Shown here: piece by piece, positions 543 through 17,392 of the stretch
Layout of the letters: the number at the start of each line of letters is the position of its first letter
Position numbering within the stretch: position 1 is the stretch's first letter
Source of the DNA: a virus
Length of the DNA: 43,792 nt
Direction: 5' to 3' (one strand)
Virus record (IMG/VR): IMGVR_UViG_3300020190_000116
Coordinates: 1-43,792 of that record
Position numbers and translations under genes: made by a program
Notes under the pieces: generated by a model
Told to the model about the DNA's origin: nothing
Database searches by the model: none
The model's input: only the letters and a program-made list of their open reading frames with translations

Positions 543-571
543 TGGACAGGCTCCCCTGCCACTGCTAGACT
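543..571 (+). promoter_or_regulatory. Promoter P1, class A (hairpin around -10)
   Basis: -35 TGGACA at 543-548, 17-bp spacer, -10 TAGACT at 566-571. The -10 lies in the loop between inverted arms 551-564 and 572-585 (14 pairs including two G-T wobbles). Downstream 579-596 can form a second hairpin with a GCAG loop. It drives the genes at 622 and 747. Confidence 0.7.
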
Positions 572-621
572 CAGTGGTGGGGGAGCAGTCCCCCCACCTA
601 CTACCAACAGAAAGGAACCCG

Positions 622-750
622 ATGAACCGCAAGAAGTGGAACGAGCAAGATCGATTTGCTTTCGCTACCCAGCGTCTGCGAGCATCGACGATGCCGAACA
701 AGAAAGCACAGGCTCGCAAGAGTGCCTGTCGAAAGTGGAGGGCAGAATGA
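622..750 (+). CDS. Small basic hypothetical protein, 42 aa
   Basis: ATG at 622 follows AGAAAGGAA at the usual distance and reads 42 codons to TGA at 748-750. The product is strongly basic (Lys/Arg-rich, two Trp), compatible with nucleic-acid binding, but no family is recognised. Its stop overlaps the next start (ATGA), which supports translation and coupling to the lipoprotein gene. Confidence 0.65.
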   Translation: MNRKKWNEQDRFAFATQRLRASTMPNKKAQARKSACRKWRAE

Positions 751-995
751 ACTACTACCAAATCCGGGCGCTCGTCCGAGTCGTGTTCTGGGGAGCGGTC
801 CTGTTCCTCGCCGGCACGGGGTGCGCGAAACTGGTCGAGATGGCTAGCCTCACCGCCGACAACCCGTGCGCGGTGAACGTGAACCGTGACTTCACATGGA
901 CGACAAACGCGCCACTCAACATCGACCTGTGCGATCACCCCGAGGGGATCATGCTGTTCGATGACGGCCACTGGGAATGGGACTACGAGGGATAG
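747..995 (+). CDS. Putative lipoprotein or membrane-anchored protein, 82 aa
   Basis: Starts inside the preceding stop (ATGA). The N-terminus has a short charged segment, a hydrophobic stretch at about 9-24, and a lipobox-like L-A-G-T-G-C ending at Cys25, so the mature protein is likely lipid-anchored outside the membrane. The remaining ~57 residues are acidic and aromatic-rich with two further cysteines that could form a disulphide. Phage lipoproteins expressed early are often superinfection-exclusion factors; that role is an inference only. Confidence 0.7.
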   Translation: MNYYQIRALVRVVFWGAVLFLAGTGCAKLVEMASLTADNPCAVNVNRDFTWTTNAPLNIDLCDHPEGIMLFDDGHWEWDYEG

Positions 996-1314
996 GAGGC
1001 CTCGGCCCAACCAGGGCCGGAAGCCCCGCCTCGATCATTGTAACGACACATCGAGGTCGTAAGCCCCGCTCACGCTGGTGACCAGCGGGGCTCGAGGGCC
1101 GGCAGAGAATACGGGGCTCTCGCCCACCGCGCGTATCCTCGCTCGCCGTGAGCGCGCGTATCGCCAGACCGGCGCGTATGTACGGAACCGGCTGAAACCG
1201 CGCGTATCCCACCGGCTCGTCCTGTCCTATCTATGCCCCCCAACCTAGCAGACCGAGCCACGGTAGGCACAAGAGCAGGGGTTTCGGTGCGTTTGTCCTG
1301 CTAGATGGCACGAT
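996..1314 (+). repeat. Control region M1: AGCCCCGC and GCGCGTAT repeat clusters
   Basis: Gene-free. AGCCCCGC at 1022-1029 and 1062-1069, then inverted copies at 1085-1092 and (ACGGGGCT) 1111-1118. The pair at 1062/1085 extends to a 9-bp perfect inverted repeat. Four GCGCGTAT copies follow, all in + orientation: 1129-1136, 1154-1161, 1172-1179, 1200-1207. Next comes CCTATCTATG near 1228 and the shared CCACGGTAGGCACA motif at about 1259-1272, then promoter P2. Confidence 0.85.
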
Positions 1315-1343
1315 TTGACTCGGCTCCTTAGGGCTGATAGGTT
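1315..1343 (+). promoter_or_regulatory. Promoter P2, class B
   Basis: TTGACT 1315-1320, 17 bp, TAGGTT 1338-1343. No strong inverted repeat spans the -10. Instead the presumed 5' end of the RNA holds GTCGGC (1351-1356) and GCCGAC (1363-1368), a 6-bp hairpin. Confidence 0.8.
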
Positions 1344-1386
1344 CAGGTTTGTCGGCAACACCGCCGACCGAAGCAAAGGAGCCACC

Positions 1387-1653
1387 ATGCTGTGGAGGCA
1401 GGTACTCACCACCATCCAGTCCGACGACCTGAGCGTCTGCCCGCCCGACCTGCGGGACGAGATTCGTCAGGCCTGTGACGAACTCATGGCCGTGAACGTG
1501 GGCGAACGCACCACCAGCGTCGGACTCACGACCCGTCAGGTGTTCGACCTCGCCCGTCGGTTCGCCACCTCGCCCGACCTCCGTGAGGAGTCGCTCATCT
1601 GGAAGCGGCACATCATCCGGCACTACTGCTGGGTCTACCGCCGACCGATTTGA
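1387..1653 (+). CDS. Hypothetical protein, 88 aa
   Basis: ATG at 1387 follows AAAGGAGCC. A largely helical, soluble protein ending in a basic aromatic segment (WKRHIIRHYCWVYRR). No family recognised. Its TGA stop (1651-1653) lies inside the -35 hexamer of the next promoter, so the 3' end of this gene and promoter P3 share bases. Confidence 0.75.
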   Translation: MLWRQVLTTIQSDDLSVCPPDLRDEIRQACDELMAVNVGERTTSVGLTTRQVFDLARRFATSPDLREESLIWKRHIIRHYCWVYRRPI

Positions 1654-1678
1654 CAGTCCCCTCTACCCCTGATAGGTT
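1650..1678 (+). promoter_or_regulatory. Promoter P3, class A
   Basis: TTGACA 1650-1655 (contains the upstream stop codon), 17 bp, TAGGTT 1673-1678. Inverted arms 1659-1672 and 1678-1691 form 14 pairs with one wobble, with the -10 in the loop. Confidence 0.85.
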
Positions 1679-1724
1679 CAGGGGTGGAGGGAACACCACC
1701 CACCACCAACCCCGAAAGGAAGCC

Positions 1725-1937
1725 ATGCCCACCATGCCCATGCCCACCCTGTCCCCCGAGGCCGACGCTCGGCTCGTCATGCCCCGAGCGTACCTCGCTC
1801 AGGCTCGTTCCTACTGTGCCGAGGTGTACGCCGACGCTGACTCCACGCTCACCGAGAAGTGGGAGGCCTCAGCCCTGCTCGCCACGGCGGAGAGCAACTT
1901 CCGCACCGCCCTCACTCGGGAGTTGGTGGGGCGATAA
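1725..1937 (+). CDS. Hypothetical protein, 70 aa
   Basis: Start ATG at 1725 chosen because GAAAGGA lies 5 bp upstream; three further Met codons within 5 residues make the exact start slightly uncertain. The N-terminus is Met/Pro-rich, and the rest is alanine-rich and predicted helical. Family not recognised. Confidence 0.7.
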   Translation: MPTMPMPTLSPEADARLVMPRAYLAQARSYCAEVYADADSTLTEKWEASALLATAESNFRTALTRELVGR

Positions 1938-1986
1938 GCCCCACCCACCCCGAACCCATCTCACCAACCCAGAAAGAGAGAAACCC

Positions 1987-2346
1987 ATGACCACACTCAC
2001 CCAGTCAGTCATCGACTACCTGAACGCCCGCAAGGCCTGCGAGGAAGCGGAGCAGGCGAAAGCCCGAGCCGAAGCCATGCTCCAGCAGGCCTACGCCAAA
2101 GCCGGCGTGGACTTCGCAGTCGTGGACGGCACGAAGGTCGCCATCGTCAGGGGCGAGCGTCCTAAGTACGACCCGACCCGACTGGCGGAACTCGTCACCA
2201 GCGAGGTGTTCGCCAGCGTCACGAAGCAGGAAGTGGACGGCACGAAGTGGAAGGCGGCTCTGACCCTCGGGAACATCGCCCCCGAGGTGGCGGAAGCCGT
2301 GACCACGCTGACCACCTACCAGCAGGTGCGAGTCAGCAAGGTCTGA
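1987..2346 (+). CDS. Hypothetical coiled-coil/alpha-beta protein, 119 aa (paralogue of 10686)
   Basis: ATG at 1987 after AGAAAGAGAAACCC. Residues 5-42 form an Ala/Glu-rich helix likely to coil, followed by a conserved region (V-D-G-T-K-V ... R-P ... L ... Y-Q-Q-V-R-V). The same arrangement and several of the same positions recur in the 129-aa protein at 10686-11075, so the two are paralogues within this genome. Function unknown. The gene ends 9 bp before a GNRA-loop hairpin and promoter P4. Confidence 0.8.
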   Translation: MTTLTQSVIDYLNARKACEEAEQAKARAEAMLQQAYAKAGVDFAVVDGTKVAIVRGERPKYDPTRLAELVTSEVFASVTKQEVDGTKWKAALTLGNIAPEVAEAVTTLTTYQQVRVSKV

Positions 2347-2355
2347 CCGAGGGAC

Positions 2356-2373
2356 GGGGGGCGAAAGCCCCCC
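2356..2373 (+). terminator. GAAA-loop GC hairpin
   Basis: Seven-bp stem GGGGGGC / GCCCCCC closed by a GAAA tetraloop, no T-tract. It lies after the stop at 2346 and 14 bp before promoter P4. Likely a transcript end or 3'-end protector. Confidence 0.65.
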
Positions 2374-2386
2374 ACCCTCCCCCGAT

Positions 2387-2415
2387 TTGACAGTCTCCCT
2401 TACCCCTGATAGATT
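2387..2415 (+). promoter_or_regulatory. Promoter P4, class A
   Basis: TTGACA 2387-2392, 17 bp, TAGATT 2410-2415. Arms 2397-2409 and 2415-2427 pair with one mismatch and one wobble. Confidence 0.85.
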
Positions 2416-2455
2416 CAGAGGTGAGGGGAAACCCCAACAGCAGAAAAAGGAAACC

Positions 2456-2890
2456 ATGACCACCATCACCCAGATCGCGAGCACGATCGACGAACTTGTC
2501 CACCGAGAGTTGGGCGACAACCAGTTCGACATGTACAGTCGCCTGTATGTCACCGACCCCGATGGGGCTTGGATGATCGGACAGTCGCACGACCCGTACG
2601 ACATGTTCGACGGCGACACCGCCGTCACGCGCCCCCGTGGGGCGACCGCCGTGGGCTTCGTGTGTACGGGCTGGGCGGCTCCGATCACGGACACGCCCAC
2701 GGACACGCCCCCGAGCCAGAGTCCTGATCGTATCCGAGTGCGAATCACCGTCGCCTACAACGGCTCCGAGTGGACGACCGTAATGCGTCGCGAGGGCGAG
2801 AACACGCCGGACATCATGGAGGAAGCCGGAGCAGGCCCGCTTGCCGACGCAATCGAGTTCTGGTGGGCAGAGGCCGAGGTCGCCTTCTGA
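2456..2890 (+). CDS. Hypothetical protein, 144 aa
   Basis: ATG at 2456 after AAAAAGGAAACC. Soluble alpha/beta protein with a Thr/Pro-rich segment near the middle (about 78-90) that looks like a linker between an N-terminal and a C-terminal part. Family not recognised. Followed by a GCAA-loop hairpin. Confidence 0.75.
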   Translation: MTTITQIASTIDELVHRELGDNQFDMYSRLYVTDPDGAWMIGQSHDPYDMFDGDTAVTRPRGATAVGFVCTGWAAPITDTPTDTPPSQSPDRIRVRITVAYNGSEWTTVMRREGENTPDIMEEAGAGPLADAIEFWWAEAEVAF

Positions 2891-2901
2891 CCCACTCCGA
2901 G

Positions 2902-2928
2902 GCTGGGGGGCGCAAGCCCCCTAGCCAC
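2902..2928 (+). terminator. GCAA-loop GC hairpin between genes
   Basis: GGCTGGGGGGC and GCCCCCTAGCC arms around a GCAA tetraloop. No T-tract and no promoter before the next gene at 2961, so this hairpin is intercistronic and may be a processing or stability element rather than a full terminator. Confidence 0.6.
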
Positions 2929-2960
2929 CCCAACATCAACTATCACCCCGAGAGGAACAC

Positions 2961-3167
2961 ATGAACATCACCATCACGACCACCACCGAGACCCTTCAGA
3001 ACATCGAGACCCTGCTCTGGGACTACGAGCGAGCGCTCGATGATCACCTGTACCGAATCTTCCCCGAGGCCTCGACCCGTCAGGCTCTGAACGACATCCA
3101 CACTCTGCGGGCCGACCTGAACCGAATGATCGGTCAGGCCGAGCGTCAGATTCTCGCCAAGCAGTGA
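2961..3167 (+). CDS. Hypothetical helical protein, 68 aa
   Basis: ATG after GAGAGGAACAC. Mostly alpha-helical, with a Thr-rich start and two amphipathic helices. No family recognised. It has no TTTGAC promoter of its own, so it depends on read-through past the preceding hairpin. Confidence 0.7.
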   Translation: MNITITTTTETLQNIETLLWDYERALDDHLYRIFPEASTRQALNDIHTLRADLNRMIGQAERQILAKQ

Positions 3168-3183
3168 TCGAGGTGTAGTCCCC

Positions 3184-3393
3184 TCAGGCTTGAGCGTCCC
3201 ACTTACCGAGTGGGCATCGGGCCGAGGGGACACGCACCTTGAGTGGCATCACGCACCCGCACTCACGGCACTGGCTCAGCGCATTGAGTCGATCGCAGTC
3301 CATACAGATCGCGAGCCGGCTCTCCTTGACCTCGTGTGATACGCGCACCCAGGGCAGTCGAAGAATGTCGAGTGGTGTCGCGTCGTCGTCCAT
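3184..3393 (-). CDS. Small zinc-ribbon phage protein (DUF6171-like), 69 aa
   Basis: Leftward gene convergent with the preceding one. It has the cysteine pattern C-x2-C ... C-x2-C-G-C ... C-P-L-x-K-W at about residues 30-64, typical of a small zinc-ribbon protein widespread in phages (DUF6171-like; family name from memory). The start lies 3 bp from an AGCCCCGC copy (3397-3404) in control region M2, so its transcription probably responds to whatever binds those repeats. Confidence 0.8.
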   Translation of the reverse strand: MDDDATPLDILRLPWVRVSHEVKESRLAICMDCDRLNALSQCRECGCVMPLKVRVPSARCPLGKWDAQA

Positions 3394-3615
3394 GGAAGCC
3401 CCGCTTACTACAATAGCAGCAGAGCCCCGCGTGCATTCGTTCTGCCGGGGCTGCAGCGCGCGCGATCGCGCGTATCTCAGGATCGGCGCGTATCCCTGGG
3501 GCCGACGAGATTGGCGCGTATCTCCACCCTGCCGGCCCCATCTATGAAGGGCCGGCCCGGCCCCCTATCTATGGCCGGCCCCTATCTATAGGGCCACGGT
3601 TGGCACATGGCCGGT
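3394..3615 (+). repeat. Control region M2 between divergent genes
   Basis: AGCCCCGC at 3397-3404 and 3423-3430, inverted CCGGGGCT at 3445-3452. GCGCGTAT at 3468-3475, 3486-3493 and 3514-3521, all + orientation. Then three CTATCTAT units embedded in GGCCGGCC-type palindromes (about 3536-3590) and the GCCACGGTTGGCACATG motif at 3592-3608. Confidence 0.85.
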
Positions 3616-3644
3616 TTGACACCGACCCTTGGGACTGATAGGTT
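3616..3644 (+). promoter_or_regulatory. Promoter P5, class B
   Basis: TTGACA 3616-3621, 17 bp, TAGGTT 3639-3644. Followed by a 5' hairpin GTCGGC (3652-3657) / GCCGAC (3664-3669), almost identical to that after P2. Confidence 0.85.
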
Positions 3645-3683
3645 CAGGTTTGTCGGCAACCCCGCCGACTCAGAAAGGAAACC

Positions 3684-3827
3684 ATGACCACCGACACCTG
3701 CGAACACTGCCAGGAAGAGCAAGGCCACTACAGAAAGTCGTTCGACACTGTGCTCTGCGACGAGTGCTTATGCGCTTGGGCAGACGGAGTGCGCGAGCGC
3801 GAGCGCGACCTCGACTGGGGAGACTGA
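3684..3827 (+). CDS. Small zinc-finger protein, 47 aa
   Basis: ATG at 3684 after AGAAAGGAAACC; 47 codons to TGA at 3825-3827. Two C-x2-C pairs (C6/C9 and C25/C28, with an extra C30) would bind one zinc. The tail is charged (alternating Arg/Glu). Family unknown. The next gene starts 5 bp after the stop. Confidence 0.7.
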   Translation: MTTDTCEHCQEEQGHYRKSFDTVLCDECLCAWADGVRERERDLDWGD

Positions 3828-3832
3828 CAACC

Positions 3833-3997
3833 ATGCACACCATCAACCTCCGCGCTGGCGACAACTACCTCGTCCTGACGGACGACGAGAGCAACTTCGT
3901 GGACTTGTTCTACAACTACGAGCAGGCCCAAGAAGTTGCCAACCTGATCCTGGAGGAAGGCTCCAGCAAAGTCCAGGTCATCAGGATCACCCTCTGA
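3833..3997 (+). CDS. Hypothetical protein, 54 aa
   Basis: ATG at 3833, immediately downstream of the zinc-finger gene and probably translationally coupled. Short beta-alpha-beta pattern. No family recognised. Followed by a GCAA-loop hairpin. Confidence 0.65.
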   Translation: MHTINLRAGDNYLVLTDDESNFVDLFYNYEQAQEVANLILEEGSSKVQVIRITL

Positions 3998-4006
3998 CCA
4001 ATCCCG

Positions 4007-4030
4007 GCCGGGGGCGCAAGCCCCCGGCCA
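4007..4030 (+). terminator. GCAA-loop GC hairpin between genes
   Basis: GGCCGGGGGC / GCCCCCGGCC, a 10-bp stem capped by GCAA. No T-tract and no promoter before the gene at 4050. Same design as the hairpins at 2356, 2902 and 7940. Confidence 0.65.
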
Positions 4031-4049
4031 CCAAACAGAAAGAGAAACA

Positions 4050-4334
4050 ATGGGACACCAATCAGCAACCGAGATGGCAGGAATGCCGATCAGCCTCGAA
4101 CAGCAACTCACGTGGCACCTCACGTCGAACCACTACCCGCCGGTTCCGCTCAGCATGATCGAGCCGTGCATGAAGGCCATCGACGCGATCGTCATGGACG
4201 AGCCGAACACGCTCATCGAGTTGCCGGACGGAATCACCTACCGTGACTCGACTCACGCGCCGGCGTGGGCGATCGCGGAGGGTCACCACCTCCAAGCGTT
4301 CATCGACTCCTGCTTCGACGAGTACGAAGACTGA
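4050..4334 (+). CDS. Hypothetical protein, 94 aa
   Basis: ATG after CAGAAAGAGAAACA. Soluble and acidic at the C-terminus. No recognised motif. It shares a transcript with 3684-3997 unless the hairpin between them terminates. Confidence 0.7.
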   Translation: MGHQSATEMAGMPISLEQQLTWHLTSNHYPPVPLSMIEPCMKAIDAIVMDEPNTLIELPDGITYRDSTHAPAWAIAEGHHLQAFIDSCFDEYED

Positions 4335-4335
4335 G

Positions 4336-4363
4336 TTGACAACCTCCCCTGCTACTGTAGATT
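4336..4363 (+). promoter_or_regulatory. Promoter P6, class A (perfect arms)
   Basis: TTGACA 4336-4341, 16 bp, TAGATT 4358-4363. Arms 4346-4357 (CCCCTGCTACTG) and 4364-4375 are perfectly complementary over 12 bp, so the -10 hexamer is exactly the loop. The upstream stop ends at 4334. Confidence 0.9.
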
Positions 4364-4406
4364 CAGTAGCAGGGGGCCCAACCCCATCAAACAGAAAGAA
4401 GGAATC

Positions 4407-4652
4407 ATGTCCGACCACATCCAGCGCATCCAGCCCATCCTGCCCAACGGCGCGATGTTCTCCATCGTGGAGTCGTTCGGCCGCAAAGAGGTGGCTGTTC
4501 TTCAGAACGACGAGTTCGTCTCGCCCACCGAGTGGGCCGACATCGACACCGGCGACGACATCGTACGCCTGTCCGACGTGGCCGACGAGTTGGCCGTGTA
4601 CCTCATGAAGGCCATCTCGTGGGGCCTCAACAACACGGAGGTGGCGCGATGA
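4407..4652 (+). CDS. Hypothetical protein, 81 aa
   Basis: ATG after AGAAAGAAGGAATC. Alpha/beta protein without recognisable motifs. Its stop overlaps the next start (ATGA at 4649-4652), indicating a two-gene operon. Confidence 0.75.
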   Translation: MSDHIQRIQPILPNGAMFSIVESFGRKEVAVLQNDEFVSPTEWADIDTGDDIVRLSDVADELAVYLMKAISWGLNNTEVAR

Positions 4653-4879
4653 GCCTGGGCGCGCTCGCACAGGACATCCTCGACGACAAGTGGGTTCTCT
4701 GCTCGATCACGGAGGCTCTAGAGCACGCGCTCGATGAGCACCTGATCGACAGGACCTACCTCGTCTACGACGAAGCCGGCGACAGCAGGCCCGCCACGGA
4801 CATCGAGTTTCTCATGGCGGTTCAGGAGATACTCGTCGCGCTCAATGCCGGCGCCATCGGCGACTCAGCCGTAGCATGA
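4649..4879 (+). CDS. Hypothetical protein, 76 aa
   Basis: Start chosen at 4649 because it overlaps the preceding TGA. Helical, acidic, ends in an Ala/Gly-rich tail. Family not recognised. Last gene before control region M3. Confidence 0.7.
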   Translation: MSLGALAQDILDDKWVLCSITEALEHALDEHLIDRTYLVYDEAGDSRPATDIEFLMAVQEILVALNAGAIGDSAVA

Positions 4880-5177
4880 GGTGAAGGGGGTCAGGGCAAC
4901 CTGGCCCCACTCGCCCGCCCACCATCTGGGCTAGAGCCCCGTCCCCATACGAGGGTCGAGAGCCCCGCGCACATCGCTAGATGCGGGGCTGCCGAAGCAA
5001 ATAACTAGCGGGGCTGCCGGCCAAAACCGCGCGTATCAAAACCGCGCGTATCAAAACCGCGCGTATCCCAGGATGGCGCGTATGCCGGCACAGCGCGTAT
5101 GCCCTCGCGCGTGCGCACGGTGTGCGTATGTGCGTGCGTGCGCCCGTTCCTCTCTCCCTCCACCACCTCGGCCCGAT
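4880..5177 (+). repeat. Control region M3 with five phased GCGCGTAT copies
   Basis: AGCCCCGT 4935-4942 and AGCCCCGC 4961-4968, inverted GCGGGGCT at 4983-4990 and 5008-5015. GCGCGTAT at 5029-5036, 5044-5051, 5059-5066, 5076-5083 and 5093-5100; the first three repeat with an exact 15-bp period (AAAACCGCGCGTATC). A GC-alternating stretch with GCACGGTGTGCGTATGTGC follows at about 5114-5132. Confidence 0.85.
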
Positions 5178-5206
5178 TTGACAGCGACCCCTGGGGCTGA
5201 TAGGTT
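5178..5206 (+). promoter_or_regulatory. Promoter P7, class B
   Basis: TTGACA 5178-5183, 17 bp, TAGGTT 5201-5206. The transcript start region GGGGAGAACGGCTCCCC (about 5217-5233) can form a 6-bp hairpin. Confidence 0.8.
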
Positions 5207-5252
5207 CAGGGTTGTCGGGGAGAACGGCTCCCCAACAAGAAAGGAGCGCACA

Positions 5253-5573: not shown

Positions 5574-5574
5574 T

Positions 5575-5603: not shown

Positions 5604-5646
5604 CAGTGGTGGGGGGCAACCCCACCAACAACAGAAAGGAAACCCA

Positions 5647-11946: not shown

Positions 11947-13412
11947 CCACCAAGATCAACGCTGGTGTGGTCACCCCCAAGGGGGTGGCCATGCCGGAGT
12001 GGCTCACTCGTGAGGACTCCCCCCAAGGCCCGTGGACTGTCAAGGAAGGCAACGCCACTCGTGGCGAGGCGTTCACCAACCGTATCGAGCGTCTCATGAC
12101 GGTTCCCTACGGCGACGACGACCTCTCCCGTGCGGTTCGCGCCCACGAGATGATGCACGCCAAGGTGTCCCCGGAGTCGATGGCTTCGTTCGACGGGTTC
12201 TCGATTTCGCCGGAGGCCATTCGGGCTTCGGAGGAATTTCGTGTGAACACGCTCTGCTCGCTCGCCGGCTTCGACATGGACAATCTGCGTGACGGGTCGG
12301 AGTCACAGACTGGCAAGCGACTGGCCGAGAACAAGGACTGGAACAACACCGTCCTGTTCATCGCGGCTACCGCCGGAACCAAGGCCTGCAAGGATGTGCT
12401 TCGTGGTATGCGTACCGTGAGTCCCGAAATGGCTGACAAGGCCAAGCGTGTCGAGAAGGCTCTGCTCGATTCGTGGAAGTCCGAGATCAAGCGTTTCGGC
12501 CCTGTGCGTGACTCTCGTGCGGTCACCTACGCTCGTCGTGAGATGGCTAGCACCACGCCCGTGGTCTACAAGGCGGACGGCACGCCGTCTCGTCCCGTCA
12601 ATCACGACACCGTTCTTGCCGAGGGCGAGCGCATCCTCCCTGAGGGGGCGAAGTTCACGCTCAGGTTTGCTTCGCTCGTGGACGCTCTACTCAAATACGA
12701 CGACTCCGTGGACGGACACGAAGGCGACGGCGAGCCGAGCGACGAGGAACTCGACGCTGTGACCAAGACGGCCGGTGGCAAGACTTGGGCGCGACTCATC
12801 GTCGATCGTTCGGTTCCGCTGACTCGTCGAGTCAAGGGCAACCTCGGTCGTCGGCGTATGGCCACCAACATCGGTGTCTCGCCTCGTCGAATGGAGCGAC
12901 TGCTGACCGACCCCGACAAGCGTGTGTTCGACCGCACGATCAAGGGGCAGGGCGGTGTCGTTCTCATCGACCAGTCCGGCTCGATGAGGCTGAACGACGA
13001 CGATGTGATGGCTCTCGTGAACGAGGCTCCCGGCTGTGTGGTCGTGGGCTACTCGCACCGACCCAACTCGTCGGGTGTCCCGAATGTGTGGATTCTCGCC
13101 GACCGTGGCAAGGTCTGTAGCGCGGTTCGCTCCGGCAACGGTGGCAACGGCGTGGACTACCCTGCCTTGGTGTTCGCCAACAAACTTCGCAAGAAGGGCG
13201 AGCCGTTGGTGTGGGTCTGCGACGGTCATGTCACGGTGTCCGATGACGGGTTCGCACCTGCTCCGCTTCGCAAGCAGGTGGCCGGCTTCGTTCGCAAGAA
13301 TCAGGTTCACATGGTTCCGACCGTGGGTGAGGCTGTGACTGCGTTGCGACGCGCCAAGTCGGGCGTTCGTCTCACGACCAAGATCGTCGGTTCGGAACTC
13401 TCCGCGTCCTGA
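11943..13412 (+). CDS. VWA-domain protein with putative metallopeptidase motif, 489 aa
   Basis: Starts inside the stop of the MoxR gene. Residues 68-72 read H-E-M-M-H, a zinc-peptidase-type HExxH, in a helical N-terminal domain; residues 343-348 read D-Q-S-G-S-M, the MIDAS motif of a von Willebrand A domain that ends the protein. The order resembles DUF2201-type putative metallopeptidase/VWA proteins, which are typically next to MoxR ATPases. Whether the HExxH is catalytic is not shown. It ends before a strong hairpin. Confidence 0.85.
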   Translation: MTTKINAGVVTPKGVAMPEWLTREDSPQGPWTVKEGNATRGEAFTNRIERLMTVPYGDDDLSRAVRAHEMMHAKVSPESMASFDGFSISPEAIRASEEFRVNTLCSLAGFDMDNLRDGSESQTGKRLAENKDWNNTVLFIAATAGTKACKDVLRGMRTVSPEMADKAKRVEKALLDSWKSEIKRFGPVRDSRAVTYARREMASTTPVVYKADGTPSRPVNHDTVLAEGERILPEGAKFTLRFASLVDALLKYDDSVDGHEGDGEPSDEELDAVTKTAGGKTWARLIVDRSVPLTRRVKGNLGRRRMATNIGVSPRRMERLLTDPDKRVFDRTIKGQGGVVLIDQSGSMRLNDDDVMALVNEAPGCVVVGYSHRPNSSGVPNVWILADRGKVCSAVRSGNGGNGVDYPALVFANKLRKKGEPLVWVCDGHVTVSDDGFAPAPLRKQVAGFVRKNQVHMVPTVGEAVTALRRAKSGVRLTTKIVGSELSAS

Positions 13413-13420
13413 CCGCGAGA

Positions 13421-13457
13421 GGGGTGGGGCAGGGTTTGTTCTCCTTGTCCCCACCCC
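13421..13457 (+). terminator. Terminator hairpin after MoxR/VWA operon
   Basis: GGGGTGGGG (13421-13429) and CCCCACCCC (13449-13457), 9-bp perfect stem with a T-rich 19-base loop and no T-tract. Directly followed by promoter P20. Confidence 0.65.
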
Positions 13458-13467
13458 ACCCCTCGAT

Positions 13468-13496
13468 TTGACCCAGCCTCACCGCTGGTGTAGGAT
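13468..13496 (+). promoter_or_regulatory. Promoter P20, class B
   Basis: TTGACC 13468-13473, 17 bp, TAGGAT 13491-13496. Followed by GTGGG-GAAA-CCCAC, a GAAA-loop 5' hairpin (about 13504-13517). Drives the five-gene operon 13551-15307. Confidence 0.8.
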
Positions 13497-13550
13497 CGAG
13501 TTTGTGGGGAAACCCACACCTATCAAGTACCTACCTACAAAGGAGTCATC

Positions 13551-14327
13551 ATGCCGAACTGGGCATACAACTCGATGACCGTCCGCTCGACTTCCGAGTC
13601 CAAGCAGACTGCCATCCACGACCTTCAGGAGTTCCTGGAGTTCATCAAGGTCACCGACCCCGAGACTGGGGCTATCAGTTACGACCTGACCAAAGCACAC
13701 CCTATGCCCGAGGCACTCATGGGCACTCGCTCACCTGTCCCCTACTCGCCTGAACCGCACCCCAATTGGGTCGAGATGTTGGCGGAGGGACAGATGACGC
13801 AGGAGCGTTTCGACGAACTCTGTGCCGAGAACATCAAGTTCTACGAGGCTGGGCAGAAGGCATACGCCGAGACCGGCTACACCGACTGGTACGACTGGGC
13901 GAACAAGGAGTGGGGAACCAAGTGGGCACCTCGCTTCGAGCACAACGACCCCGAGTTGGACGAGGAGCACGAACAGGTCTCGATGTACTACGAGACTGCG
14001 TGGTCGCCGGCAGATGGGCTGGTTTCCAAGATGAGCGAACGCTTCCCGAACTTGGTGTTCGAGGTGTCCGTGACAGAGGAAGCAAACCTGTATGTCGGTG
14101 CGTCGCACTTCCACAACGGCGTGGCGACGATGTTCTACACCTCGTTCGATGACAAGGATTTGCCCGACCGCTACACGAAGCGGTACGCCGAGATTGTCGA
14201 ACACGAGGCGAAAGACGACATCGACTGGGATTCCTACTTCGAGAAGATGAGTGACCTCCAGTCCGATGTTCTCGAATACTGCGAGAATCAGATTGCGCTC
14301 ATGGCCTCATTTGAGGTGGGGTCATGA
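13551..14327 (+). CDS. Api92-like ferredoxin-fold protein, 258 aa
   Basis: ATG after CAAAGGAGTCATC. Opens M-P-N-W-A-Y-N-S-M-T-V and contains W-G-T-K-W near residues 122-126, hallmarks of the Api92-like (DUF1281) family found in phages and mobile elements. The function of that family is unknown. First gene of a tightly overlapping operon. Confidence 0.85.
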   Translation: MPNWAYNSMTVRSTSESKQTAIHDLQEFLEFIKVTDPETGAISYDLTKAHPMPEALMGTRSPVPYSPEPHPNWVEMLAEGQMTQERFDELCAENIKFYEAGQKAYAETGYTDWYDWANKEWGTKWAPRFEHNDPELDEEHEQVSMYYETAWSPADGLVSKMSERFPNLVFEVSVTEEANLYVGASHFHNGVATMFYTSFDDKDLPDRYTKRYAEIVEHEAKDDIDWDSYFEKMSDLQSDVLEYCENQIALMASFEVGS

Positions 14328-14689
14328 GTGCCGACCTGACTATCGCCATGGCTCCGATTGTCAAGACCAAGGACGAGGCAATCATCAAACTCAAATCCAT
14401 GGAACCCGAGGTTCTGCTCCATGTTCTATCCGAGTATTTCGCCCGTGAGTTTGATGAGGCGACCGACGAGGAGGAGTATGCCGAGGCGGTCTCCTATGTC
14501 ATCGGCAAGATCGAAGAGGTGTACTCGTACTACGAGCATGGCTCTCGTGACACGGAGGTGCGGAGGATCAACGGAACCGACTGGTTGATTACCGGAGGTT
14601 TGTCGTGGGGCGATGACCCAACGGACGCATACGAGCCGGTGTCCATCGTTTCAGGACTACAACTGACGCACGACGAGGAGAGTTCATGA
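14324..14689 (+). CDS. Hypothetical acidic protein, 121 aa
   Basis: Start overlaps the preceding stop (ATGA). Helical, with a Glu-rich centre and a W-L-I-T-G-G-L-S-W-G-D-D-P-T segment near residues 87-100, a motif seen in other small phage proteins of unknown function. Confidence 0.75.
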   Translation: MSADLTIAMAPIVKTKDEAIIKLKSMEPEVLLHVLSEYFAREFDEATDEEEYAEAVSYVIGKIEEVYSYYEHGSRDTEVRRINGTDWLITGGLSWGDDPTDAYEPVSIVSGLQLTHDEESS

Positions 14690-14808
14690 CAATCCGAGTG
14701 TTCGACCCGAACCCGACATACGACGAATGGTGCGAGGCGAACGGCCTCGACCCTGACAACGACGAGACCTACAACGCTTACTGCGAATGGAGAAGCAACA
14801 ACCGATGA
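14686..14808 (+). CDS. Small hypothetical protein, 40 aa
   Basis: Found by reading between 14324 and 14805. ATG overlaps the previous stop (ATGA) and its own stop overlaps the next start (ATGA at 14805-14808), so it is held in the operon on both sides. Acidic with two Cys and three aromatic clusters. No family recognised. Confidence 0.7.
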   Translation: MTIRVFDPNPTYDEWCEANGLDPDNDETYNAYCEWRSNNR

Positions 14809-15146
14809 CCACGCACAACTACAACTCGATTCCCGAGGAGTTCCGGATGTACGTCCAGCAACCGCTCGACGACTCCATGCTCGATGAGCGGAAATACTCA
14901 CTCAAGATCACGGACGAGATGGAACACTCCCGTGGGATCGCATGGGTGGGCAGTCTCACGGCCGGCGACAAGATCATTGCCACGGTCGAGAACGCCGGCC
15001 ACGGTGGTGCCAACGACTACATCATCGCCAACGACTCCCTGTGGGATGTGTTCGTCGAGGATGCGTACACTGCGTATGGCAATCGAGGCGAGGCCAAGGA
15101 CTCGCTCGTCCAACTGATCGACGTACTCACAGCGGTGACGGTGTGA
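14805..15146 (+). CDS. Hypothetical protein, 113 aa
   Basis: Start at 14805 is fixed by the ATGA overlap. Alpha/beta protein with an A-G-H-G-G-A-N-D-Y segment near the middle. Not recognised. Its stop overlaps the GTG of the next gene. Confidence 0.7.
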   Translation: MTTHNYNSIPEEFRMYVQQPLDDSMLDERKYSLKITDEMEHSRGIAWVGSLTAGDKIIATVENAGHGGANDYIIANDSLWDVFVEDAYTAYGNRGEAKDSLVQLIDVLTAVTV

Positions 15147-15307
15147 AACCCACGCTCGACCAAGAAGTAACAGCACTCGATTCCTTGCTGGCCAAGATCG
15201 ATTTCGCCCTGAGCGAGATCGGGCACAAGACGGTCGTGGAGGCACCAGTCATGGTGGACTTACTACTCGACATTCGCTTCTTGGCAACAACAGTCAAGGA
15301 CACCTGA
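15143..15307 (+). CDS. Small hypothetical protein, 54 aa
   Basis: GTG start in GTGA overlap with the preceding stop. Amphipathic helices throughout. Bases 15255-15271 (encoding V-D-L-L-L-D) recur exactly at 23964-23980 inside the mosaic insertion of the third WhiB gene. Confidence 0.65.
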   Translation: MKPTLDQEVTALDSLLAKIDFALSEIGHKTVVEAPVMVDLLLDIRFLATTVKDT

Positions 15308-15330
15308 TCACTGGTGGTAGGTGACGCAGA

Positions 15331-15357
15331 GGGGCGGGCCGAAAGGCTCGCCCCTTT
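15331..15357. terminator. Bidirectional terminator between convergent genes
   Basis: GGGGCGGGCC, GAAA loop, GGCTCGCCCC: 10-bp stem with one wobble, then TTT. It separates the rightward operon from the leftward repressor-like operon. Confidence 0.8.
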
Positions 15358-15362
15358 GTGCT

Positions 15363-15632
15363 TTACTTGCGTAGAAAGTTGTCGAGTGTTCGCCAGTACC
15401 GCCACGCAACGCCGGCACCGACCAATGGCAACAGCCGTGGCTGGACAGCCAGCACCTCAGCCTCGTTGAGGTTGAGGAGAATCGCGTAGGCCAGCACGCC
15501 CTCGAAGGCACCGGTCACCGCAGCGAGGATCAGTCCGACTGGCGTATTGACCCGACGCACGAACACCCGTTCATCGTCATCGTCCCACTCGTACTCGACT
15601 TCGCGCTTGTCGGTTGAACGCAACTGCTTCAC
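15363..15632 (-). CDS. Small membrane protein, 89 aa
   Basis: Two hydrophobic segments (about 31-53 and 63-78) after a charged, acidic N-terminal part. The start overlaps the stop of the DNA-binding gene at 15629 (ATGA), so it is co-expressed with a probable repressor. A membrane protein in that position could be an exclusion factor; this is inference from context. Confidence 0.75.
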   Translation of the reverse strand: MKQLRSTDKREVEYEWDDDDERVFVRRVNTPVGLILAAVTGAFEGVLAYAILLNLNEAEVLAVQPRLLPLVGAGVAWRYWRTLDNFLRK

Positions 15633-16003
15633 TGTGCCTTTCCTTTCAGGATTTGATGGACGCGCTGACGCGACAAACCTACTCGATCCGCGATCTGCTG
15701 TAGGCTCAGTCGCATCCCGCGCAGCGTGTGGACATCACGGTGCATAGCGATGTTCATCTTCGCCCCAGGCGCACGAGCCTCCCACTCCCATGAAGGGATG
15801 TGCTCGAAGGCCTGAGCCTGCTCGATGGTCAAGAGCCCCGCTCGGTAGCGACTCTTGATGTAACTGGCCCACCGGCCGATGGCGACTCGTTCGCCGGCCG
15901 CACCGCGCGTATTGTGCGACAGCGGGATATTTGTGTGGCCATTCTCTCGCGCGTATTTCTCGATCATGTGAACGCGCGTATGGAACTGTTCGTCTCGGGT
16001 CAT
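15629..16003 (-). CDS. Helicase-associated-domain/HTH DNA-binding protein, candidate repressor, 124 aa
   Basis: Residues about 10-80 match a single helicase-associated (HA) domain (G-H-T-N-I-P ... I-G-R-W ... Y-R-A-G-L-L ... I-P-S-W-E-W). Residues about 99-121 form a helix-turn-helix (L-S-L-Q-Q-I-A-D-R-V-G-L-S-R-Q-R-V-H-Q-I-L). Both parts are DNA-binding folds. The gene is divergent from the rightward small genes, has a leaderless start, and carries GCGCGTAT in its promoter spacer and three more copies inside its first 100 bp. It is the best candidate for the protein that reads the GCGCGTAT clusters. Binding has not been shown. Confidence 0.85.
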   Translation of the reverse strand: MTRDEQFHTRVHMIEKYARENGHTNIPLSHNTRGAAGERVAIGRWASYIKSRYRAGLLTIEQAQAFEHIPSWEWEARAPGAKMNIAMHRDVHTLRGMRLSLQQIADRVGLSRQRVHQILKGKAQ

Positions 16004-16032
16004 GTCAATAAGTTAGCCCACGGTGCGCGTAT
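15905..16032 (+). repeat. Control region M6: GCGCGTAT copies over the HA/HTH gene start
   Basis: GCGCGTAT at 15905-15912, 15949-15956, 15974-15981 (all inside the leftward coding sequence) and 16025-16032 (inside its promoter). One AGCCCCGC lies at 15834-15841. The partial motif CCACGGT precedes the last copy. Confidence 0.85.
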
Positions 16033-16039
16033 GTGTCAA
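16010..16039 (-). promoter_or_regulatory. Leaderless leftward promoter with GCGCGTAT in the spacer
   Basis: Minus strand: TTGACA (16039-16034), 18-bp spacer, TAACTT (16015-16010), then 6 bp to the ATG at 16003. GCGCGTAT (16025-16032) lies entirely in the spacer. Rightward promoter P21 starts 23 bp away, so one bound protein could control both. Confidence 0.75.
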
Positions 16040-16061
16040 GGTTTGCGCGGATTGTTTCGAT

Positions 16062-16090
16062 TTGACGGCCAGCCATTTATCTGATAGATT
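16062..16090 (+). promoter_or_regulatory. Promoter P21, class B, divergent from the repressor-like gene
   Basis: TTGACG 16062-16067, 17 bp, TAGATT 16085-16090. Followed by the conserved TACCTACTACC leader before the gene at 16144. Confidence 0.8.
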
Positions 16091-16143
16091 TGGCTTTGGC
16101 GGTTGAGAGATTGCCATTTAGTACCTACTACCAAAGGAGAGTT

Positions 16144-16338
16144 ATGGGAACCCCCCATGAAGATACAGAGTTGCGCAACGCCGACGGCGATAACTGTTGC
16201 GAGTGCGGTGAGGTCATGCTCGCCATGTTCGGCAATGGGCCGGTTCGTTTCGAGGATGGCTTTGCGCACGAGCAGTGCGCCCTCGATGCGGAGGCGTTCG
16301 ACGCGGATGCTTATTTCGCAAAGTTCGAGGAGGCGTGA
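16144..16338 (+). CDS. Small zinc-finger protein, 64 aa
   Basis: ATG after CAAAGGAGAGTT. C18-C19-x-C21 and H42-x2-C45 provide a zinc site. The rest is acidic and helical. Family unknown. First gene transcribed rightward from the divergent control region. Confidence 0.7.
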   Translation: MGTPHEDTELRNADGDNCCECGEVMLAMFGNGPVRFEDGFAHEQCALDAEAFDADAYFAKFEEA

Positions 16339-16340
16339 TC

Positions 16341-16622
16341 GTGGGTATCGACCCCTGCACATACTGCGGTGAGTCCACCGCCCTCGGGGCCACACGCCAC
16401 GATGGATCACTGATTGGCAAGTTCATCAACCGCATTCCCGTGGATGACGGCTGGGGCTGTGCCGAGTGTTCTGGATTCAAGTGCGACGAGTGCGAGAAGC
16501 AGATTTATCTCGACCACGAAGTCCGCGTCGATTTCACCGACCCCATCACCGGCAAGTACCGCTACGGCAACTACCACGAAGAGTGCTACTCGGCCGAGAT
16601 ACATGGGCCGTGTGAGTACTGA
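16341..16622 (+). CDS. Cysteine-rich zinc-binding protein, 93 aa
   Basis: GTG start at 16341 with AGGAGG 8 bp upstream, overlapping the end of the previous gene's ribosomal footprint. C6-x2-C9, C41-x2-C44 and C49-x2-C52 plus later Cys/His can bind at least two zinc ions, so it resembles a double zinc-ribbon adaptor. The stop TGA is followed directly by TTTGAT of promoter P22. Confidence 0.7.
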   Translation: MGIDPCTYCGESTALGATRHDGSLIGKFINRIPVDDGWGCAECSGFKCDECEKQIYLDHEVRVDFTDPITGKYRYGNYHEECYSAEIHGPCEY

Positions 16623-16623
16623 T

Positions 16624-16652
16624 TTGATCCATTCGCTTACAGGTGATAGGAT
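16624..16652 (+). promoter_or_regulatory. Promoter P22 with GCGA-loop 5' hairpin
   Basis: TTGATC 16624-16629, 17 bp, TAGGAT 16647-16652. The 5' end of the RNA would hold GTGGCAG-GCGA-CTGCCAC (16660-16677). The segment 16644-16680 is identical to 17384-17420. Confidence 0.75.
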
Positions 16653-16703
16653 TGCCTCAGTGGCAGGCGACTGCCACCACCTACTAACTACAGAGGAGTA
16701 CCA

Positions 16704-17144
16704 ATGAAGTACATCGTCCACGAAGGAACCGGCACCATCATCAGTGCCGACGAGTGCGTCATCGTCAGTGTCCCCAGGGAAATCTTGGATGCCATGAGCG
16801 GTGACGACTACTTCGACGATCAGCAGGTTCTCGACCTCGCAGTCGAAGCCGGCAAGCCCATCAACCTGACCGACATGACGTACGGCAACACCATGGCATT
16901 CTCGCCTTCCGCTCTCCGTGAGGAGGCTCGGGAGATGATCGATGCCGAGTTGTTCGGCACCGAGGAGAGTTGGCACGAAGCACTCGTGTGGTGTGCGAAC
17001 ACCGCCACCGACGACGAACTGAATGCCGTTGCGTCATACATCCTCGATGACGATGATCTGTGGAGAACCTTCCGCGTCAGCGTCACCGACGGCCTGCTTC
17101 AGGGCCTGATCTGGCACAAAGAATCACTGAAAGGAAAGTCGTGA
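16704..17144 (+). CDS. Hypothetical protein, 146 aa
   Basis: ATG after ACAGAGGAGTACCA. Acidic alpha/beta protein with an Asp-rich patch (I-L-D-D-D-D-L-W) near residue 115. No family recognised. Its stop overlaps the GTG of the next gene. Confidence 0.75.
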   Translation: MKYIVHEGTGTIISADECVIVSVPREILDAMSGDDYFDDQQVLDLAVEAGKPINLTDMTYGNTMAFSPSALREEAREMIDAELFGTEESWHEALVWCANTATDDELNAVASYILDDDDLWRTFRVSVTDGLLQGLIWHKESLKGKS

Positions 17145-17386
17145 ACTCGACACATCTCACCCACATATTCACACTCCCGGAGCGTTCGCTCACGTCGAGG
17201 ATCGAGAACGGAGAGGAAGTGATCGTTGGCATCCACATTGGTAACAACAACTTCATCACCATTCATCTCTCGGCCAACGCGAACGGCGATCTCGACTACG
17301 AGGTGGTGGAGGATGCCAACCCCGACGTTGGTTTCGCCGGCACCTATCCCGAGTTCTTCGATTTGACCGCTATCAGCACCAACTGA
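17141..17386 (+). CDS. Hypothetical protein, 81 aa, with nested promoter
   Basis: GTG start in GTGA overlap, preceded by GAAAGGAAAGTC. Beta-rich, asparagine-rich centre. The last eight codons contain the -35 of promoter P23, and the stop TGA ends at the base before its -10, so coding and promoter sequence are superimposed. Confidence 0.7.
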   Translation: MNSTHLTHIFTLPERSLTSRIENGEEVIVGIHIGNNNFITIHLSANANGDLDYEVVEDANPDVGFAGTYPEFFDLTAISTN

Positions 17387-17392
17387 TAGGAT
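17363..17392 (+). promoter_or_regulatory. Promoter P23 nested in coding sequence
   Basis: TTGACC 17363-17368, 18 bp, TAGGAT 17387-17392, then the same GCGA-loop hairpin as P22 (17400-17417). Drives 17451-18491. Confidence 0.75.

Follow-up and report, generated by a model that had tools for sequence, protein, structure and literature searches.

The early promoters of phage N4 use, and require, a DNA hairpin. In phage T7, intergenic RNase III site hairpins stand by serial promoters that serve the phage polymerase and are located outside the hairpin loop, and late leaders begin with a stem-loop. For the early region of phage phiC31, Ingham and others are said to have described in 1995 early promoters together with hairpin terminators that lack a poly-U. 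Cluster K mycobacteriophages carry the ESAS, which the available excerpts of three reports describe as SigA-like promoter copies that stand upstream of small non-structural genes and have an imperfect inverted repeat of 15–17 bp (PMC3203893, PMC11373665, PMC12699233) and whose departures from the repeat, in the excerpt of the first report, do not support RNA pairing (PMC3203893). Between genes 90 and 91 of Adephagia, a post-gene hairpin adjoins an ESAS promoter and lysogen transcription ends there, as far as the available text goes (PMC11373665). The available parts of the literature on U-less hairpins describe a partial, orientation-dependent effect in mycobacteria (PMC5335608), work by others in which the mycobacterial polymerase required a U-tract in vitro (cited in PMC5335608), and a survey that holds the U-trail to be unnecessary (PMC8355165).

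Here, we analysed a 43,792-nt stretch of DNA from an uncultivated bacterial virus (IMG/VR record IMGVR_UViG_3300020190_000116), referred to in its entirety as the window. Its early region carries 22 + strand copies of one putative promoter with both hexamers (variants allowed) and a consensus of approximately TTGAC, 17 bp, TGATAG. The initial annotation had counted at least 23 copies, and the 23rd, at 11139, has a −35 only. The motif GATTTGAC occurs 19 times, exclusively on the + strand, where 1.58 occurrences are expected and 19 were reached in 0 of 100 shuffles. Exact matches to GATTTGAC-N15..20-TGATAG numbered 15 forward, 0 reverse, and 0 with a reversed-pattern control. A scan of positions 1–19000 for sigma-70 type promoters (TTGACA- and TATAAT-like hexamers, 16–18 nt spacing) yielded 17 matches against 4.2 expected; 14 of these are copies of the GATTTGAC repeat, and TG precedes the second hexamer in 10. 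We infer promoter activity and start sites for these copies from their sequence.

In nine of the 22 copies, termed class A, the −10 forms the loop (4–7 nt) of a hairpin of 11–17 bp, with one or two bases of the hexamer paired at some sites. All nine sites that the initial annotation had named fold in this way:

543–586, + strand: class A unit 1; −35 TGGACA, hairpin at about 550–586, −10 TAGACT in loop
1650–1694, + strand: class A unit 2; −35 overlaps upstream stop codon, hairpin 1656–1694, −10 TAGGTT at loop
2387–2429, + strand: class A unit 3; hairpin at about 2394–2429, single A-C mismatch
4336–4376, + strand: class A unit 4; hairpin 4345–4376
5575–5617, + strand: class A unit 5; hairpin 5583–5617, 15 bp
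6008–6051, + strand: class A unit 6; hairpin 6015–6051, 16 bp, inner 13 pairs include three G-U
7971–8009, + strand: class A unit 7; hairpin 7983–8009
8406–8450, + strand: class A unit 8; hairpin 8412–8450
9001–9047, + strand: class A unit 9; hairpin 9010–9047, 17 bp, loop GGAT, first two −10 bases paired

Folding energies range from −19.0 to −32.6 kcal/mol at these nine sites and from −7.2 to −16.0 kcal/mol at the other 13 copies. Against a background of dinucleotide-shuffled sequence (the 75 nt preceding the start codon), class A z-scores are −3.7 to −8.7, and the native stability was matched by 0 of 40 shuffles at each site. The placement described in the initial annotation also holds: a gene or post-gene hairpin precedes eight of the nine sites, the exception being unit 9 (9001), 256 nt beyond the preceding stop codon, and a −10 hairpin is absent from all 10 promoters that follow GCGCGTAT/AGCCCCGC clusters. 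Class A hairpins accompany 8 of 11 post-gene promoters versus 1 of 11 other promoters, as assigned by the analyst (Fisher P = 0.004).

Arm sequences vary among the nine copies while pairing is kept. Across ten outer positions at each site, 86 of 90 pair (69 Watson-Crick, 17 G-U), with one A-C and three other combinations. Among all 362,880 re-pairings of the arms, 86 pairs were reached by the true pairing alone (mean 73.8), which was likewise best by folding energy. This covariation check had been proposed along with the claim that pairing rather than sequence is conserved, and its outcome bears that claim out. At all nine sites the sense RNA folds more stably than its antisense, and G-U pairs exceed A-C combinations modestly when swapped arms are the reference (P = 0.04).

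The other 13 copies comprise class B and two post-gene promoters:

1315–1377, + strand: class B promoter with 5' terminal hairpin, behind repeat cluster, no −10 hairpin
3616–3672, + strand: class B promoter with 5' terminal hairpin
5178–5237, + strand: class B promoter with 5' terminal hairpin
7251–7395, + strand: two class B promoters in tandem (7251, 7332)
10395–10650, + strand: four class B promoters in tandem (10395, 10463, 10554, 10622), the last without 5' hairpin
13468–13520, + strand: class B promoter abutting a separate hairpin at about 13423–13463 (read by eye)
16062–16110, + strand: class B promoter with 5' hairpin; other arms in L076 (alignment, pairing by eye)
16624–16670, + strand: post-gene promoter, no strong overlapping hairpin, 5' hairpin GTGGCAG..CTGCCAC
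17363–17417, + strand: post-gene promoter, no strong overlapping hairpin, 5' hairpin GTGGCAG..CTGCCAC

At 21 of the 22 promoters, a leader hairpin begins between −3 and +4 of the predicted +1, in a search that started at −3. Covariation is seen in the leader hairpins of class B (1 of 20,000 permutations was as good, with halves cut by the native fold, which favours native pairs). Taken singly, the leader hairpins of both classes are modest relative to shuffles (z +0.5 to −2.4 at the 17 of 22 sites covered). At class A sites, the segment that pairs with the 5' arm (arm 1) in read-through RNA, arm 2, can also pair with arm 3 in the new leader. This pairing is predicted at all nine sites (−4.5 to −16.3 kcal/mol) and is, in sum, stronger than with shuffled arm 3 (0 of 200 as good). 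Arms 2 and 3 show no covariation among the nine sites (9,124 of 20,000 permutations were as good). Predicted ribosome-site accessibility is 0.67 in read-through RNA, 0.67 with arm 1 scrambled, and 0.70 in the new leader.

Hairpins of the same kind occur at seven junctions that lack the promoter repeat, five of them clear relative to shuffles, and at six of these seven the sigma-70 type scan of positions 1–19000 found no promoter-like match. These are listed with further hairpins near stop codons:

173–194, + strand: junction hairpin without promoter repeat, overlaps stop codon, weak (z −1.8)
1925–1945, + strand: junction hairpin without promoter repeat, stop codon TAA in loop (z −6.8)
2901–2926, + strand: junction hairpin without promoter repeat (z −3.4)
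4006–4029, + strand: junction hairpin without promoter repeat (z −3.2)
6471–6487, + strand: weak junction hairpin without promoter repeat (z −1.9), in spacer of generic promoter-like match 6465–6494
9557–9584, + strand: junction hairpin without promoter repeat, TTCG loop (z −4.8)
18496–18526, + strand: junction hairpin without promoter repeat (z −4.8), also in L076 and L048
2349–2379, + strand: additional hairpin after the stop codon, loop GCGAAAGC, upstream of class A unit 3
7933–7968, + strand: additional hairpin after the stop codon, loop GCGCAAGC, upstream of class A unit 7
11088–11110, + strand: post-stop hairpin followed by CTCCTTTCC; same loop and other arms in L102
11124–11159, + strand: variant hairpin with −35 (GATTTGAC) at tip (loop and upper 3' stem), −27.8 kcal/mol, z −4.7

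The variant hairpin at 11124–11159 precedes a MoxR-like ATPase gene and has no clear −10; it and the junction hairpins without the promoter repeat had been overlooked in the initial annotation. Among the 21 window hairpins listed, whose coordinates were partly entered by hand, 17 begin in the interval from 20 nt upstream to 16 nt downstream of a stop codon. In the early region, 12 of 19 gaps contain a hairpin with an energy below −18 kcal/mol, versus 0 of 57 shuffled gaps. At units 3 and 7, the second hairpin is the one closer to the stop codon.

The suggested search of relatives gave a mixed outcome, with superposition of hairpin and promoter in some (L102, L202, and L203) and absence of the hairpin/promoter layout from the scanned parts of five isolates. 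In L102, the closest diverged relative, the gap upstream of the MoxR-like gene holds two hairpins, as in the window, with different arms. Their own energies (window/L102) are −11.1/−8.8 for the first and −27.8/−23.3 for the second, and weaken to −3.1/−3.5 and −10.0/−16.3, respectively, when arms are exchanged. In both phages the second hairpin carries the −35 at its tip, and the first is slightly more stable as antisense than as sense RNA. One L102 unit, at −35 kcal/mol, has the −10 as its tip, with a 3 nt loop and most of the hexamer paired; L102 gaps show no general excess of hairpins (1 of 9 versus 1 of 27 shuffled). In the more distant L202 and L203, hairpins cover the −35 and spacer. A hairpin below −20 kcal/mol overlaps 5 of 21 + strand promoter matches in L203, in differing registers, and in the two widest of its gaps that contain a hairpin below −18 kcal/mol, promoter and hairpin are separate. 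A hand-picked set of L202/L203 hairpins, some of them orthologous to each other, favours sense over antisense RNA in 11 of 11 cases, one of them marginal. In L153, 11 short hairpins of differing sequence lie directly before ribosome sites (2 of 50,000 permutations were as good, with halves again cut by the native fold).

The hairpins resemble canonical intrinsic terminators in being GC-rich RNA hairpins after genes. A scan of positions 1–19000 for U-tract terminators did not pick out any class A or other junction hairpin on the + strand; its strongest + strand match (15325–15360) lies apparently between convergent genes. Moreover, efficient termination at the seven junctions without the promoter repeat would silence the genes behind them.

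Collectively, we consider it about an even bet (probability roughly 0.5) that these elements are post-gene RNA hairpins superimposed, where gaps are short, on the promoter of the next gene, and that they punctuate the transcript. At crowded early-region junctions, hairpin and promoter would share the same 40 bp. The arms would pair in RNA transcribed from the upstream gene, and the hairpin would most likely end a share of transcripts through leaky, U-less termination and shield their 3' ends. Polymerase from the superimposed promoter would begin inside the 3' arm, so that the hairpin would form in read-through RNA only and not in the new mRNA, in whose leader the same G-rich segment could find a C-rich partner further downstream. 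We propose that the −10 or −35 lies in a loop or arm because the gap is short. Counted against this reading are the lack of a U-tract, the U-tract dependence in vitro reported for the mycobacterial polymerase (cited in PMC5335608), the junctions without the promoter repeat, L102 without an excess, the second hairpin at units 3 and 7, unit 9 at 256 nt, the modest G-U excess, the antisense-favoured first MoxR-gap hairpin, and the missing arm 2:3 covariation.

The pairing kept on sense RNA and the superposition in some relatives make it plausible that the unit ends one transcript and starts the next, as the initial annotation had proposed; its emphasis on the −10 in the loop does not stand, because the register varies both inside the window and from one relative to another. 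A fuller version is rather unlikely: a read-through-only hairpin would end upstream transcripts without a U-tract, the same DNA would start the next mRNA, and half the hairpin would be reused in an alternative leader stem, with termination perhaps helped by polymerase engaged at the inner promoter.

It is somewhat unlikely that the hairpin instead belongs to the gene downstream, lying 20–40 nt before each early start codon in whatever RNA covers the gene (arm 1:2 in read-through RNA, arm 2:3 in newly started RNA) and guarding or defining the mRNA 5' end, after processing or initiation, or insulating the ribosome site. This would account for the hairpins at junctions without the promoter repeat, which end 20–55 nt before the start codon, for class A hairpins, which end at 23–36 nt, and for unit 9, which fits this distance and breaks the post-stop rule; the leader hairpins at 21 of 22 promoters, class B covariation, and the L153 hairpins also agree with it. 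However, single leader hairpins are modest and their permuted halves favour native pairs, wide-gap hairpins in the window and L203 remain near the stop codon, L202 and L203 leaders mostly lack such a hairpin (by eye), and predicted ribosome-site access hardly changes. The same unchanged access, the lack of arm 2:3 covariation, and the absence of a switch in L202 and L203 (by eye) make improbable a two-state RNA switch, in which arm 2 would pair with arm 1 in read-through RNA or arm 3 in new RNA and the next gene's two transcripts would behave differently, although arm 2:3 pairing occurs at all nine sites and exceeds that with shuffled arm 3 in sum.

A DNA-level element, either the −10-opening cruciform that the initial annotation had offered as an alternative or a palindromic repressor operator, would explain why the −10 is central in nine palindromes, and the DNA hairpins of N4 early promoters speak for it. 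We consider it very improbable, given that such a hairpin is missing from 13 of the 22 promoters that share these hexamers, G-U outnumbers A-C 17 to 1, sense RNA is favoured at nine of nine sites, and the register differs in the window and relatives; an operator would also need a shared arm sequence, which the nine sites lack. Chance is less probable still: C-rich spacers ahead of the −10 and G-rich leaders behind it give much of the pairing, as the 73.8 of 90 pairs averaged by swapped arms indicates, but the permutation and shuffle tests and the joint replacement of orthologous arms argue against composition as the explanation.

If the superimposed hairpins do end transcripts, they would provide compact, U-less punctuation that insulates neighbouring genes, by a mechanism that is disputed for actinobacteria; a dual-use unit, if true, would offer general, independently tuned insulation of neighbouring phage genes in about 70 bp. 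The naturally occurring variants, in which the tip carries the −10 or the −35 or the hairpin lies immediately upstream of the −10, make this a question for reporters. They also caution that a palindrome around a −10 need not be an operator.

Among known systems, N4-type promoters differ in that 13 of the 22 copies here lack the −10 hairpin. The window shares with T7 junction hairpins beside serial phage promoters and leaders starting with a stem-loop, and with phiC31 actinophage early genes, reportedly serial promoters, and U-less intergenic hairpins. On the phiC31 + strand, only two sites match the promoter pattern, which makes the comparison a weak one, and none has its −10 in a hairpin loop; one strong hairpin with a −10-like hexamer in its loop lies at 38381, near the integrase gene. 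Like the ESAS in the available accounts, the repeat comprises several SigA-like promoter copies with an inverted repeat before small non-structural genes of an actinobacterial phage. In seven Adephagia copies, however, whose arms are similar in sequence, the left arm contains the −35 and the −10 is located at the right arm, whereas in the window the −10 is at the loop, arms vary, and no sequence-conserved inverted repeat holds the −35 and −10 in its arms. The ESAS-linked SAS (GGGATAGGAGCCC, 13 bp, located at the ribosome site) does not recur here, with 2 matches at ≤2 mismatches in the whole window and 1.06 expected. Mycobacterial I-shaped (U-less) hairpins are similarly strong and post-gene, with an orientation-dependent drop in downstream expression; the available text differs in concerning a host gene and one tested element, notes no inner promoter, and leaves the mechanism disputed (PMC5335608). 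At Adephagia genes 90–91, a post-gene hairpin with a 17-base stem marks the end of lysogen transcription just before the next promoter (PMC11373665, available text), and there hairpin and promoter are adjacent, whereas in the window they are superimposed.

The early region of the window, a linear virus record of 43,792 bp, contains 22 sites between 0.5 and 17.4 kb with both hexamers of one promoter (approximately TTGAC, 17 bp, TGATAG). A further -35 at 11139, with no clear -10, brings the tally into agreement with the initial annotation, which had described about 23 copies of a single + strand promoter design. The sequence GATTTGAC occurs 19 times in the window, in all cases on the + strand, against an expectation of 1.58. 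Near-identical contigs were identified (IMGVR_UViG_3300021424_000234, 3300020197_000316, and 3300020578_000040), the last of which is 81 kb long and encodes one more such + strand promoter to the left of the window and, further left, three similar promoters on the - strand. Hairpins compared between the 81 kb contig and the window were identical, except those before the genes at 241 and 622. When positions 5-5475 of the window were aligned with this contig, 105 of 106 differences fell in the first 610 bases, a distribution suggestive of a recombination edge. Features of the window that bear on the analysis are as follows.

1129-1207, 3468-3521, 5029-5100, 7118-7196, 10249-10333, and 15905-16032: clusters of GCGCGTAT, upstream of promoters that lack a strong hairpin at the -10 (class B)
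9781-10005: WhiB-type protein (PF02467, E 4e-11)
11221-13412: MoxR-like AAA ATPase (phrog_16448), then a larger VWA-like protein (phrog_33218, function unassigned)
35516-36991, - strand (late half of the record): match to phrog_2928, a tryptophan halogenase family (E 8e-96)

The WhiB-type protein points to an actinobacterial host; by eye, the ORF at 6-188 also resembles a WhiB-type protein. MoxR-like and VWA-like are our own labels for the two phrog matches, and this gene pair is common to many IMG/VR contigs. GCGCGTAT is present in 27 copies on the + strand of the window and 2 on the - strand, and its clusters are often accompanied by AGCCCCGC in both orientations (13 and 7 copies). These clusters are possible regulator sites or iterons.

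At nine promoters (class A), the -10 lies at the loop of a predicted hairpin of -19.0 to -32.6 kcal/mol; the 13 class B promoters lack a hairpin with the -10 in its loop (-7.2 to -16.0 kcal/mol). One or two hexamer bases are paired at some class A sites, the clearest case being 9025 with its GGAT loop. With the arms set in one register and the three innermost pairs excluded, pairing was observed at 86 of 90 positions. Among the 362,880 possible re-pairings of the arms, only the true pairing reached 86, although the mean of 73.8 indicates that composition gives much of the pairing and, since the nine sites are paralogs in one genome, the 1-in-362,880 figure is not a phylogenetic test. Arm energy was likewise best for the true pairing (-223.6 versus a mean of -165.2). 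Arm column 4 varies among A-T, C-G, and G-T, and either C-G or T-A is present in columns 5, 9, and 10, such that the changes in the arms are compensatory. The earlier claim that pairing is kept while arm sequence varies is confirmed, and the observation is statistically strong. The sense RNA fold was more stable than the antisense fold at all nine sites, and class A arms contain 17 G-U pairs and 1 A-C mismatch as compared to 142 and 48 in swapped arms, a modest excess (P = 0.04). Together, the sense bias and the G-U excess favor RNA pairing over a DNA cruciform. An Rfam search of positions 1-20000 (E up to 1) returned three matches, all under the gathering score, one of which was a match of the hairpin of class A unit 6 to a microRNA family. 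Two hairpins each are present at units 3 and 7 and at the junction before the MoxR-like gene. The 240 bp before unit 9 (8755-8997) contain no obvious + strand gene and feature short - strand open stretches.

Hairpins are also present at seven gene junctions without the promoter repeat. Those before the genes at 241, 1987, 2961, 4050, 9620, and 18548 lack a U-tract and are mostly of similar strength; the one before the gene at 6534 is weak and falls between the hexamers of a generic promoter-like match at 6465. Five of the seven have z-scores of -3.2 or lower versus shuffled sequences, while those before 241 and 6534 have z-scores of -1.8 and -1.9, and three of the seven lie across or directly beside the stop codon. 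In a crude survey of gaps, based on a crude ORF caller, 12 of 19 early gaps but none of 57 shuffled gaps had a hairpin below -18 kcal/mol; the late region offered only two testable gaps.

Scanning IMG/VR with the promoter yielded 90 stretches, and the 80 listed comprised pieces of near-identical contigs, relatives with approximately 80% DNA identity (L076 and L048), and otherwise single matches. A scan with CTGATAGNNTCAG recovered 22 stretches (6 from near-identical contigs and 16 single matches), and 2 single matches are in bacterial genomes. Loci were also compiled in two sets (76 and 30, some sharing a contig), of which 31, L102 and L153 among them, were included in the gap survey. Across 138 de-duplicated loci, with near-identical contigs excluded, 113 strong hairpins with a -10-like loop were identified, and 4 of these have TTGAC 17-19 nt upstream, one of which (L179) resembles a lac-type operator by eye. 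The promoter repeat was absent from L178, a 47% relative of one early protein. At L129 14584 (-) and L167 12880 (-), a TTGACG-containing promoter-like match has its -10, TATATT, within a 17 bp hairpin with TTTT after it. In this other phage group, the promoter-like loop belongs to a U-tailed hairpin.

The relative L102 (3300005805_000452), whose VWA-like protein is 59% identical to that of the window, shares the promoter consensus: GATTTGA is present in 9 of 12 listed + strand sites and TGATAG in 6 of those 9, with three in tandem. Its tandem promoters are preceded by GCGCGTAGATT repeats. In one L102 unit, the -10 sits at the tip of a 17 bp hairpin (about -35 kcal/mol); with a loop of 3 nt, the hexamer is mostly paired, and the unit fails the stricter loop rule of the 138-locus scan. 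A second match, at 18677, has a weak energy of -18.3. In the gap before the MoxR-like gene, the window and L102 each have two hairpins in the same places with different arms, and every hairpin is weakened once arms are exchanged between the two phages. The second hairpin of both phages has the -35 across its loop and upper 3' stem, and in both the antisense fold of the first hairpin is slightly more stable.

More distant relatives, L202 and L203 (MoxR-like protein 65%), have a different promoter consensus (TTGnnn, 17, TATAAT or TATACT). L203 has 21 + strand and 5 - strand matches, and 5 of the 21 overlap a hairpin below -20 kcal/mol, at -59 to -18, -36 to -4, -35 to -3, -39 to +7, and -38 to +9 relative to the -10. 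In three further gaps, TATACT or TATAAT with no TTG -35 lies within about 4-6 nt downstream of a strong hairpin. Of the L203 gaps that contain a hairpin below -18, the two widest have promoter and hairpin apart. Hairpins below -18 kcal/mol were detected in 5 of 15 L202 gaps (0 of 45 shuffled) and 7 of 17 L203 gaps (0 of 51), with some excess in the isolate Tank (6 of 23; 4 of 69) and none in L102 (1 of 9; 1 of 27) or L153 (1 of 14; 3 of 42). L153 has 11 short, sequence-diverse hairpins directly before GAGAAAGCAAGG-like ribosome sites (2239-16240), the stems of which covary (equaled by 2 of 50,000 permutations). It also has two promoter-like sites whose -10 is in a loop.

With transcript start taken as 12 nt past the first -10 base and the stem-loop search limited to -3, a leader stem-loop beginning between -3 and +4 of the predicted start was identified at 21 of 22 promoters, the exception being 10645. 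Individually these are modest versus shuffles (z +0.5 to -2.4; 17 of 22 sites covered). Because leader halves were cut by the native fold, permutation tests are biased toward native pairs; under such tests, own halves were equaled by 1 of 20,000 permutations for class B (n = 12), by 0 of 20,000 for all 21 leaders, and by 9,124 of 20,000 for class A (n = 9), which shows no own-half signal. Summed class A leaders were more stable than those with shuffled downstream arms (0 of 200 as good). At site 16062, the leader hairpin has other arms in L076 (alignment, with pairing by eye).

The constant element would be a strong RNA hairpin, formed by read-through RNA between a stop codon and the next gene, over which a promoter would be laid, in whichever register fits, where space is short; overlay in any fitting register implies no special role for the -10 in the loop. 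A hairpin close to the stop codon suggests a role at the 3' end of the upstream message, and one ahead of the ribosome site suggests a role at the 5' end of the message downstream. Gaps of 50-75 bp satisfy both positions, wide gaps favor the stop codon, and unit 9 favors the start. We judge a leaky 3'-end role most likely, followed by a 5'-end role. The initial annotation had proposed a unit that ends one transcript and starts the next; such a function is plausible and in part supported by the relatives. No hairpin of the set qualifies as a terminator by a U-tract definition. Cruciform opening of the -10, its alternative, and an operator were rejected as unlikely, given variable arms, sense bias, and variable register. 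A translational switch was rejected, as predicted ribosome-site access does not differ between read-through and new RNA.

No close isolates were found by DNA for positions 1-25000, and the 560 aa product of the minus-strand ORF at 39381-41063 returned 0 isolate records by protein. The MoxR-like ATPase matched 2 Microbacterium phages at about 32%, and the primase/helicase matched 106 records, the 15 listed being at 30-33% and mostly from Arthrobacter. A search of relatives for the layout recovered superposition in L102, L202, and L203 and 0 promoter-like sites with the -10 in a loop in phiC31, Adephagia (25-60 kb), Pointis (25-69 kb), Tank (20-68 kb), and Dardanus (all), a weak negative given the few pattern matches per isolate (2, 8, 5, 10, and 7, respectively). 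The one strong hairpin of Adephagia that has a -10-like loop is within gene 33.

By title and abstract opening, no description of a promoter inside an intergenic hairpin was found among the open-licence papers listed. The closest published element by count and setting is the extended start-associated sequence (ESAS) of cluster K mycobacteriophages; in seven Adephagia copies compared, the -35 and -10 are inside similar arms, and the departures do not support RNA pairing according to PMC3203893. In Microbacterium cluster EF phages, the ESAS is centered on GTAGAG (PMC7302621). We remark that the cluster K start-associated sequence GGGATAGGAGCCC and the EF motif GGGAAAGGACCCC, as given in these two papers, could fold GGG..CCC with the ribosome site in the loop. 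The 17 bp palindrome of cluster O was set aside because its arms are invariant (PMC4351075). Among U-less hairpins, the nearest published case is TtsaD of M. tuberculosis, which lowered downstream expression in one orientation; the same paper (PMC5335608) cites experiments from other groups in which a U-tract was required by mycobacterial polymerase in vitro. The known kind to which this layout belongs is serial early promoters with intergenic hairpins, and here the two are superimposed.
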